64,000 nucleotides of DNA, taken from NCBI RefSeq assembly GCF_900215205.1, contig NZ_OBDY01000012.1:62001-126000 (forward strand), in the 5' to 3' direction. Source of the stretch: Paractinoplanes atraurantiacus. GTDB lineage: Bacteria > Actinomycetota > Actinomycetes > Mycobacteriales > Micromonosporaceae. Made by a program: the position numbers and the translations under genes. Of this stretch, positions 20,790 to 23,142 are shown in pieces. The notes under the pieces were generated by a model that saw only the letters and a program-made list of their open reading frames with translations, made no database searches and had not been told where the DNA came from. Each line of letters begins with the position of its first letter. Within the stretch, counting starts at the first letter, position 1.

Positions 20790-22547
20790 TCAGAAGAGCT
20801 CGAGGCCGCCGCCGGCGGTGGTGGCCTCGAGCTGGGGCTGGGCGGGGGCCAGCTGGTCGATCTGGGCGATGGCCGCCTGGACCTGGGAGATCAGGCCGCT
20901 GATGCTGTGCTGCTGGTCGTCGGCGACCGAGCGGACCTGGTCGATGGCGGCGCGGACGCTGGCGATGCCGTCGGTCATGGTGGCCACGGCGCTCGAGACG
21001 TCGGTGGCGCTCGTGGTCAGGGCGCCCAGGGTGGTCGTGATGCGCTCGGCCGAGGTGGACGTGTCGTCGGCCAGCTTGCGGACCTCGTCGGCCACGACCG
21101 CGAAGCCCTCGCCCGCCCGGCCGGCGCGGGCGGCCTCGATCGTGGCGTTCAGGGCGAGCATGCGGGTCTGGCCGGCGATCTGCGCGATCACCGCCACCAT
21201 CTCGGCCGCGGCGGGCAGGCTGACGCCGAGCGCCTCGGCCGCCCGGTCGGCCTGCGCCGCGTGATCGGCCATCTGCTCGGTCGCCGAGTGGGCGGCGGCC
21301 GCGCCCGCGTTGATGTTCTGCACCGACTCGCGGACCGTGTCGACCTCGTGGACGGCGTCGCCGAGCTGATAGGCGATGCCGCCGATGATCTGTTCCGACT
21401 CGGCCTGGACCCGGTGGAGCGTCTGGTCCCGGGCCTCCTCTTCGGCCGACTGCTGCCGCCGCCGCTGCTCCTCGGCCCGCTCGCGCTCCCCGGCCAGCTC
21501 GGCCTGCTGCGACTCGAAAGCGGCGAGCATGCCGTTGGCCGCCGCGCTCAGCGCCCGCAGGTCGGGATGGGCCGAGTCGGGAAGCCGCTCGCTCACGTCA
21601 CGGGACTCCATGATCCGCTCGGCGGCCTGGCGCAACGGCAGGACCTGCTCGCGCACGCTGCCGCGCACCACCCGGCCGATCGCCACCTTCAGGAAGATCA
21701 TCATGACCACGACGGCGACCGCGATCGCGGTCAGCGCCCGGACCGCCGCGTTGTGCACCGGCCGTTCCTCGAGGTTCTCGAGAGTGACCTGCACCCCGTC
21801 CACGCCGGTCACCGTCGTCTGCACGGCCACTTGGGTCCCGGCCACCGCGGTGTTCACCACGAGCGTGCCGATCAGGCTCGACATGTCGTCGTGGCGCACG
21901 CTGCCCTCGCGTGGGGCGCCGAGCAGCCGGGTCGTGTCGTCGGTGTTCTGATTGATCAGGCCCAACCCGGCCGCGTCCAGAGTGCGAAGCATGACGAGCG
22001 AACCGGACGACGTGCCACCGCCGCCACGCTTGTAGACGGCCAGACTGCAGAACATGGTGGGCGCCCCGACGGCCGAGGTGACGCCGCACGTCGCCGAGCC
22101 GGGGGTGGCGCCGGTGTCGATCAGGGTGTTCAGCACGGTCGTGTCGCGCAGCTCGTCCGGCAGGCTTTCGTAACCGGTCGGACCGAGCTTGCCGCCGACC
22201 TGCTTCTTCCCGTCGCGGCTCACGCCGACCACGCCGGACAGCCCGTAGAAGGCCCGCAGCTGCTCGGCCGGGAAGTCCGCCTCGAAGCCCGCCTGGTCGC
22301 CCCTGGCCACATCGGTGTAGGCGCTGGTCCGCATCGAGTTGGTGATCCCGAAATCGACCATGCTCGCGGCGTGGTCGCTGAGCGCGGTCCGTAACTCTTC
22401 CGCCTCTTTGGTCAACATGCGCTGCTCGGCGCTGCCGAAAGCCCGCAAGGTGATCACCCAGACGGGCACCATCAGGACCACGAGCACCGTCGCCAGCAGG
22501 GCGAGGATGCGCAGCCGGCCCGGCTCACGCAGCCAGCTCCGCTTCAC
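20790..22547 (-). CDS. Methyl-accepting chemotaxis protein
   Basis: A 585-residue transmembrane receptor. One membrane segment (about 13-35), an extracytoplasmic sensor of about 240 residues with a Cys pair (ATCGV and MFCSL, possibly a disulfide), a second membrane segment (about 275-295), a HAMP-like linker, a coiled coil rich in Glu/Arg/Gln, and the MCP signalling tip [20 protein letters not shown] leading into [13 protein letters not shown]. It signals to CheA/CheW at the tip; no che genes are in the window. Its presence suggests a motile stage. The ligand is unknown. Confidence 0.92.
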
Positions 22548-22608: not shown

Positions 22609-22638
22609 TTGCGGAGTCGTTGCAGGCGGGGGCATACT
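22609..22638 (+). promoter_or_regulatory. Predicted promoter of the chorismate mutase leader transcript
   Basis: TTGCGG (22609-22614), 18-bp spacer, CATACT (22633-22638). A start point about 7 nt downstream falls at the GTG of the leader ORF (22646), which would make the transcript leaderless. Confidence 0.4.
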
Positions 22639-22645
22639 CGGCAGC

Positions 22646-22708
22646 GTGATCCAGCAGGCGCGATTTTTCTATGGCAGCGGGTGCCCCGCGGCCGTAGGAC
22701 GCGTCTGA
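22646..22708 (+). CDS. Putative Phe/Tyr leader peptide upstream of chorismate mutase
   Basis: A 20-codon ORF, GTG to TGA, with consecutive TTT-TTC-TAT (Phe-Phe-Tyr) at codons 7-9. TTT and TAT are rare codons in this high-GC genome, so the cluster is notable directly in front of a gene for Phe/Tyr biosynthesis. It ends 12 nt before a strong hairpin (22721-22756). Its stop codon lies in a small stem GTCTG/CAGAC (22703-22717). There is no good ribosome site, but the predicted start point coincides with the GTG (leaderless). I propose ribosome-mediated attenuation; a convincing antiterminator arm was not found. Confidence 0.55.
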   Translation: MIQQARFFYGSGCPAAVGRV

Positions 22709-22720
22709 ACGACAGACCTC

Positions 22721-22756
22721 CATCAAGCCCCGGGCCTCACCGCCCGGGGCTTGATG
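22721..22756 (+). terminator. Attenuator-like hairpin before chorismate mutase
   Basis: Perfect 15-bp stem CATCAAGCCCCGGGC / GCCCGGGGCTTGATG with a 6-nt loop, 47 bp before the chorismate mutase ATG. No U-tract follows. A partial competing pairing is GCCCCG (22683-22688) with CGGGGC (22745-22750). Confidence 0.65.
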
Positions 22757-22803
22757 CTGCCCGGGCCGGGTCGACCGGGGCGCAAGCACCCGAGGAGCAC
22801 GAC

Positions 22804-23142
22804 ATGACCGCCGACGTGGTGGACAACAAGACCGGTGACAGCGCTGCCCAGGCGAGCGCGGCCGGGATGGACCTCAAGACCGGCGCCGCCGAGCCGCTGG
22901 CCGCGCACGAGATCAGCGCGATGCGCGAGCGGATCGACGAGATCGACCAGGCCATCATCGACCTGTGGCTGGAACGGGCCCGCCTCTCGCAGGAGGTCGG
23001 CCGCACCCGCATGGCCAGCGGCGGCACCCGCCTCGTCCTCTCCCGCGAGCGCGAGATCGTCGAGCGCTTCCGCGAGGCCCTCGGCGCCGACGGCGCCCAG
23101 GTCGCCCTGATGATCCTGCGCGCCGGGCGCGGCCCTCTCTAG
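22804..23142 (+). CDS. Chorismate mutase (AroQ type)
   Basis: A 112-residue helical enzyme turning chorismate into prephenate, the entry to Phe and Tyr. The conserved AroQ helix is clear: [26 protein letters not shown], then [19 protein letters not shown] flexible N-terminal tail (about 32 residues) precedes it. Position beside pcrA matches Rv0948c, the small intracellular mutase that needs the DAHP synthase AroG for full activity; the C-terminal RAGRGPL ending resembles the loop used for that contact. Its stop overlaps the stop of the convergent ABC gene. Confidence 0.9.

Follow-up and report, generated by a model that had tools for sequence, protein, structure and literature searches.

A 20-codon ORF carrying adjacent Phe and Tyr codons precedes the chorismate mutase gene in the window (the whole stretch of DNA that was analysed, 64,000 nucleotides in length, from an Actinoplanes-like genome of the Micromonosporaceae), and the question raised by this locus is whether the ORF and the hairpins around it control that gene. 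Chorismate mutase produces prephenate, the precursor common to Phe and Tyr, and determines how chorismate is divided between Phe/Tyr and Trp. The initial annotation favoured attenuation of the gene by the supply of Phe- and Tyr-tRNA, and this reading is supported by the conservation of the aromatic codons, the promoter spacing, and the hairpins. We consider it probable that the element attenuates chorismate mutase through a leader peptide, sensing the charging of Phe- and Tyr-tRNA. A shortage of Phe or Tyr would most likely raise chorismate mutase, because the leader and a switchable hairpin recur in many actinobacterial families.

As first described, the leader runs from a GTG at 22646 to a TGA at 22708 (translation VIQQARFFYGSGCPAAVGRV, then stop) and reads TTT-TTC-TAT in three adjacent codons. 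The biosynthetic gene is preceded by a short ORF with consecutive codons for the pathway's products, an arrangement that would be characteristic of an attenuator. The distance to the gene had been given as 98 nt and is in fact 95 nt between the leader stop and the ATG at 22804. The features of the element are collected in the table below.

Features of the chorismate mutase leader region in the window (A3, alignment of the family, defined in the text)
Feature	Position	Strand	Basis
Promoter TTGCGG-N18-CATACT	22609..22638	+	sequence; -10 conserved in genus and in 45 of 54 loci from 21 families
Leader ORF MIQQARFFYGSGCPAAVGRV, stop	22646..22708	+	predicted leaderless; kept upstream of chorismate mutase in relatives
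Control codons Phe-Phe-Tyr (TTT TTC TAT)	22664..22672	+	sequence; genus variants known
1:2 (pause) hairpin	22667..22699	+	fold; compensatory changes across 21 families and in A3
2:3 outer helix (candidate antiterminator)	22680-22688 with 22730-22738	+	A3; 7 of 9 pairs kept in window, one G-U
2:3 inner helix (candidate antiterminator)	22694-22700 with 22715-22721	+	A3; 5 of 7 pairs kept in window
3:4 terminator-like hairpin CATCAAGCCCCGGGC / GCCCGGGGCTTGATG, loop CTCACC	22721..22756	+	fold, A3 covariation
Helix 5:6 TGCTGCCCGGG / CCCGAGGAGCA	22755-22765 with 22789-22799	+	RNAalifold (genus); covers Shine-Dalgarno
Shine-Dalgarno GAGGAG of chorismate mutase gene	22792..22797	+	sequence; conserved block in genus alignment
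Chorismate mutase, AroQ type, 112 aa	22804..23142	+	PF01817, E 2.5e-10

The rarity of two of the control codons, already remarked upon in the initial annotation, is borne out by eight genes of the window, in which TTT occurs 0 times against 102 for TTC and TAT 9 times against 77 for TAC. Phe is nonetheless written mainly as TTT in the leaders, with 65 TTT to 38 TTC in 54 leaders and 93 to 17 in 58 leaders of the genus; the 54 loci, which also served for the -10, 1:2, terminator, and swap tests, were hand-picked from loci with a detected leader. Each of 25 groups has one or more leaders that use TTT, a codon absent from the eight neighbouring genes of the window. Within the genus the leader consensus is VIQQARFFYYGTGSPAAVGRV, with variable aromatic residues, the run appearing as FFY, FFYY, FYFY, YFYY, FYGY, FFAY, FFSY, FFTY, FYDY, or FFFY. 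Four genus leaders are frameshifted: two (L006 and L028) have lost one T from the T run and read FFTT onward, and two (L018 and L044) carry a deletion that changes the reading frame after FFYY. All four keep the FF codons, and their RNA helices are largely intact. A motif derived from the leader, TTYTWYTAYGGNANCGG, occurs once in the 10.9-Mb genome, at the chorismate mutase leader.

The promoter proposed earlier was also found as described, with TTGCGG at 22609-22614, an 18-nt spacer, CATACT at 22633-22638, and then 7 nt to the GTG. In the genus, a script found CATACT at 56/60 loci and GATACT at 1/60, 6 or 7 nt upstream of the GTG; of its three misses, L036 and L044 have a -10 by eye and the leader of L030 lies at the edge of its stretch. 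More widely, a -10-like hexamer (pattern [TC]ANN[ACG]T) stands 5-9 nt upstream of the leader start at 45 of the 54 loci, covering 21 families, as compared to 30 of 1067 random ATG/GTG codons within the same loci. Each of 31 family loci has such a hexamer, a count that is biased in that the script favoured starts having a -10 motif. Because the -10 spacing is conserved, these data support a leaderless leader mRNA, with a predicted transcription start at or beside the GTG. Divergent from the leader, and 98 nt from its start, lies a gene for a CHASE4/MCP-signal chemoreceptor (20790-22547, minus strand).

Relatives had been named from the outset as the place to check the proposal, and there the aromatic codons, hairpins, and promoter spacing proved to be conserved in the genus, in the family, and in many families of the class. 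Leader, hairpin, and gene occur together in all 60 genus genomes drawn (the window genome and 59 others), and the genus alignment A1 holds 59 of these 60 sequences, L036 being excluded as it lacks the exact GAGGAGCA string though the element is present. A further 42 loci (L091-L132) also have the leader, many of them not independent of the 60-genome sample, and nine loci (L133-L141) have no leader of FFYG type. Across the whole family the gene was found in 79/81 genomes, and the leader in 31 of 32 loci, a set made up of loci from the family's remaining genera and four earlier ones; the script had counted 32/32, and one match (L270) was judged spurious.

Beyond the family we relied on a detector that accepts ORFs of 8-40 codons, at most 500 nt upstream of the gene, in which a five-residue stretch holds three or more F/Y or the pattern [FY].?[FY]G occurs, and whose background was 11/441 in shuffled and 1/147 in antisense regions. 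Among the other families of the order it matched in 36 of 38 gene-bearing genomes (40 drawn), a count that includes one genome with a weak gene match (G064) and one with a leader of dissimilar look (G069, AFCFF); the two misses were G079 and G068. In a further sample of the class, where the gene (E 1e-12) was present in 38/148 genomes, five of them already counted and one (G165) excluded for having only 79 nt upstream, the detector matched in 24 of 32 assessable genomes. Four of the eight misses (G202, G213, G224, and G234) belong to the same family as G079, and some misses have related forms (FYGGRVRSPL at L171 and L189, RRYFAET at L186, RFYPDRPP at L192), others showing nothing similar. Related leaders before chorismate mutase in other families include RFFYYGTGSPAAVGRV, RFFYGYRSPVPV, and FLFTYGNRP. 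With a pattern looser than the order and class detector, leaders of the FLFTYG kind were read in 27 of 27 assessable loci (29 read, with L222 and L225 left out as having no anchor) of a genus that we infer to be Streptomyces, where the gene is present in 61/61 genomes. The same looser pattern gave leaders such as RFFYGYRPAVPVV in 25 of 28 loci, with the match at L250 judged spurious, of a genus taken to be Mycobacterium, where 59/60 genomes have the gene. In three genera (g20, g30, and g31) of family f8, the gene is present without the leader (L147, L148, L150, L151, and L152), another genus of that family having it; the leader seems to have been lost or replaced in these three. A search of Rfam 15 returned no match above gathering score within the window.

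Conservation extends to the RNA structures that overlap and follow the leader. The 5′ arm of the 1:2 hairpin contains the second Phe codon and the Tyr codon, an overlap with the control codons that is typical of attenuators, and the hairpin is extended outward by pairing of 22655-22662 with 22700-22707. With 21 families represented by a single sequence each, and with three off-register families (f33, f46, and f28) yet kept in, its six pairs were standard in 82.5% of cells, compared to 68.2% in shuffles and 53.3% in the best slid version, and 18 cells had changed on both sides compared to 5.5 in shuffles; neither value was reached by any of 2000 shuffles.

The 3:4 hairpin is, as initially annotated, a perfect 15-bp stem (22721-22735 with 22742-22756) with a 6-nt loop, and it is present in the minimum free energy (MFE) structure of the 159-nt leader, whose energy of -92.1 kcal/mol (z -5.37) was matched by 0 of 200 shuffles. 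In A3, a family alignment of 53 rows comprising 31 from other genera (L270 excluded) and 22 of the 59 genus rows, hand-picked for diversity, the hairpin has 16 cells changed on both sides against 4.5 in shuffles (0/500). Conservation of the leader, the promoter spacing, and hairpins 1:2 and 3:4 can be regarded as shown, on the strength of the sequences compared. At the 54 loci, a GC-rich stem starts 9-44 nt (mostly 14-28) past the leader stop. These positions come from a stem scan, which mis-called some loci (e.g., L073, L088, and L175) and was used instead of a first automatic terminator finder that picked long false hairpins. A CAGACC motif lies just upstream of the terminator in several families (22713-22718 in the window; also L062, L069, L082, and L089).

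The absence of a U-tract noted in the initial annotation also holds, in that no 5-in-8 U-tract is found behind the stem in the window, where the eight bases past the G+C core are TTGATGCT, with 4 interrupted T. At least 4 T in these eight bases were found in the best member of 19/25 groups (16/21 families), a count made without a shuffled control and in which the interrupted tail of the window also scores 4. Sister genera have cleaner T tails, for example TTTTCGCT, and since their U-tracts are better, the poor U-tract of the window is, as judged by this comparison, a local feature.

For the antiterminator, the conserved pairing lies elsewhere than the one first suggested (22683-22688 with 22745-22750). 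The accompanying doubt that the mechanism is classical has been answered in part: a longer candidate antiterminator exists, with a 9-bp outer and a 7-bp inner helix, and two tests of it were negative. The window keeps 12 of the 16 consensus pairs. The outer helix, in which many sister genera have GGGAGUCCGG opposite CCGGGCUCC and much of the window's genus has GGAAGUCCGG opposite CCGGGCUUCC, is paired in 93.3% of A3 cells, with 67.5% in the best slid version, and both of its sides have changed in 17 cells, where shuffles give 8.3 (0/500). For 1:2, the 2:3 outer helix, and 3:4 alike, none of 500 shuffles of A3 reached the observed pairing, both-side changes, or covariation score, with the caveat that related sequences can beat shuffles without structure. 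Two of five measures for the outer helix (pairs changed on both sides and further pair types) were not above shuffles, and perhaps only a few events carry its signal, because 16 of the 17 both-side cells fall at one base pair, columns 12 with 73 (GC 26, AU 14, CG 2, GU 2, other 9). The inner helix, of consensus GUAGGUC:GACCUAC across a loop of variable length, is paired in 87.2% of A3 cells versus at most 39.8% when slid; its covariation in A3 was not above shuffles. Within the genus alone there was no excess of covariation for the antiterminator, and swapping strand 2 between families gave a mean z of 0.00 over 21 families, a null perhaps due to the CCGG motifs that families share. Taken together, the 2:3 pairing is moderately supported, and we consider it likely to be real.

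These elements suggest how the attenuator might operate. Transcription would start at the leader GTG or beside it, and the ribosome would load on a leaderless mRNA. With ample charged tRNA it would reach the leader stop, 3:4 would form, and transcription would stop. When charged Phe- or Tyr-tRNA is scarce, the ribosome would stall at the FFY codons and cover strand 1, leaving strand 2 free to pair with strand 3 (the terminator's 5′ arm and loop together with the upstream GACCUAC); the 2:3 helix would then block the terminator and chorismate mutase would be made. Of these steps, the stalling of the ribosome, termination in a genus whose U-tract is poor, and the response to Phe and Tyr are inferred.

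It is the termination step that invites the most serious alternative, namely that, in the window's genus, this leader with its alternative helices acts by translational attenuation, the 3:4 stem forming without termination. The OFF state would then comprise 1:2, 3:4, and 5:6, with the Shine-Dalgarno buried in 5:6, and a stall would give an ON state made up of 2:3 and a 4:5 helix (GCCCGGG:CCCGGGC), with the Shine-Dalgarno exposed. The interrupted tail past the stem core, set against the tails of sister genera, fits such a switch, as does helix 5:6, which is paired in 98.6% of cells over 59 genus sequences, with identities of 0.949 in strand 5 and 0.969 in strand 6 and 0.809 in the spacer between them. 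The exact 4:5 motif is present in 49/59 of these sequences, and when the window is folded from 22721 on, mimicking a ribosome at the leader stop, 5:6 appears in the MFE structure. However, helix 5:6 has no compensatory change among the 59 sequences, it is not chosen in the whole-leader MFE structure of the window, and the pairing energies between the terminator flank and Shine-Dalgarno-like sites are much alike in sister genera that have U-tracts (-5.1 to -18.3; genus mean -13.7), in a comparison that is crude, the site being chosen by motif. Across sister genera, no clear link emerged between Shine-Dalgarno pairing and a poor U-tract. Because of the tail and the conserved 5:6 helix, control in the window's genus may be partly translational, but a purely translational switch strikes us as unlikely. 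It is tempting to speculate that a leaderless Phe/Tyr attenuator of AroQ-type chorismate mutase dates from early in the Actinomycetes and is class-wide, and that Actinoplanes has lost the U-tract and evolved a six-segment translational switch in which a stall frees the Shine-Dalgarno; to this fuller scenario we assign the same rather low probability.

Two further readings would dispense with the sensing of tRNA charging. In one, the nascent leader peptide itself arrests the ribosome in a ligand-dependent manner, and the conservation of what follows the aromatic residues (GTGSPAAVGRV within the family and GYRSPVPV in other groups) might seem to point this way. The conserved residues are, however, encoded by both arms of the covarying 1:2 hairpin, and their conservation can be explained because they encode it. 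Moreover, the aromatic residues differ in kind and order among genus leaders, and in the four frameshifted genomes the peptide is altered past FF or FFYY while the RNA is kept. Because of these frameshifted leaders and the coding of the hairpin, we rank an arrest peptide low and think it very improbable. The other reading is that the ORF arose by chance in a transcribed region, next to a terminator or a stable hairpin that serves some other end, and the hairpin by itself could conceivably terminate upstream transcripts. The cross-family conservation of the codons, start, promoter spacing, and hairpins, set against a detector background of only 11/441, leaves this non-regulatory reading with a negligible probability.

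Elsewhere in the same genome, no FFY leader was found at the DAHP synthase, prephenate dehydratase, or prephenate dehydrogenase genes or at the best PheS match, with two PheS-like matches (L261 and L262) left out of this check. Near DAHP synthase lies an ORF bearing AFFWEF, a form that differs from the FFY leader. A second gene of the CM_2 family in this genome (G000:C21:143694-143927, L198), within a 322-codon open frame, is without an FFY leader. Five genus genomes (L061, L064, L068, L070, and L072) have a chorismate mutase paralogue, with 54-64% identity to that of the window, that lacks the leader; the detector match at L070 was rejected as an unrelated ORF. In the window, the last four bases of the chorismate mutase gene (23139-23142) overlap a convergent ORF, named by eye as an ABC transporter ATPase.

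Actinobacteria are the source of many aromatic-derived drugs, and RNA control of their chorismate mutase is unreported in the literature searched. The presence of the leader in 21 families makes regulation at the chorismate branch point directly testable, and the natural series of good U-tracts, poor U-tracts, and lost leaders can serve the study of attenuators in high-GC genomes and on leaderless mRNAs. The word chorismate has 0 occurrences in the main text of PMC4046766, PMC11109978, and PMC13236596. No title or abstract start naming a chorismate mutase leader was found in the open-access literature, where absence is weak evidence. On the sequence evidence presented here, this is a real and widespread element, most probably an attenuator of chorismate mutase of a known kind, for which we found no earlier report.

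Known attenuators resemble this leader to differing degrees. Mycobacterial leaderless poly-cysteine short ORFs are said, in work by Canestrari and colleagues from 2020, to be amino-acid-responsive attenuators; in this they would match the leader described here, which is predicted to be a leaderless short-ORF attenuator, but they use cysteine codons. An AroR leader of aroF in Corynebacterium glutamicum was reportedly the subject of a 2014 study by Neshat and colleagues. In Escherichia coli, pheA is a chorismate mutase-prephenate dehydratase fusion, and the pheL-pheA leader has a ribosome-binding site and a U-tract. The fusion target, the ribosome-binding site of the leader, and the U-tract distinguish that system from the window, and no sequence relation is claimed. 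The two would be alike in their Phe codons, in attenuation by the supply of Phe-tRNA, and in a target with chorismate mutase activity. The pheL-pheA attenuator is named in PMC11802643. The trp leader attenuators of Streptomyces and Corynebacterium, as described in the accessible part of their source, are likewise GC-rich actinobacterial leader peptides and have an antiterminator and a terminator, as is proposed for the window, but have Trp codons and poly-U tracts where the window has Phe/Tyr codons and a poor U-tract (Seliverstov et al., 2005; PMC1262725). For operons of phenylalanine or tyrosine, the same part of that study states that no upstream structures were conserved (Seliverstov et al., 2005; PMC1262725). 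The nearest known system is aroR of C. glutamicum, whose Phe-Tyr-Phe leader precedes aroF and for which, according to the accessible text of two papers, transcription rises on Phe limitation (PMC11802643; PMC4046766). As far as those texts go, both are actinobacterial leader peptides with aromatic codons before a gene of the aromatic pathway, the target being DAHP synthase in C. glutamicum and chorismate mutase in the window.
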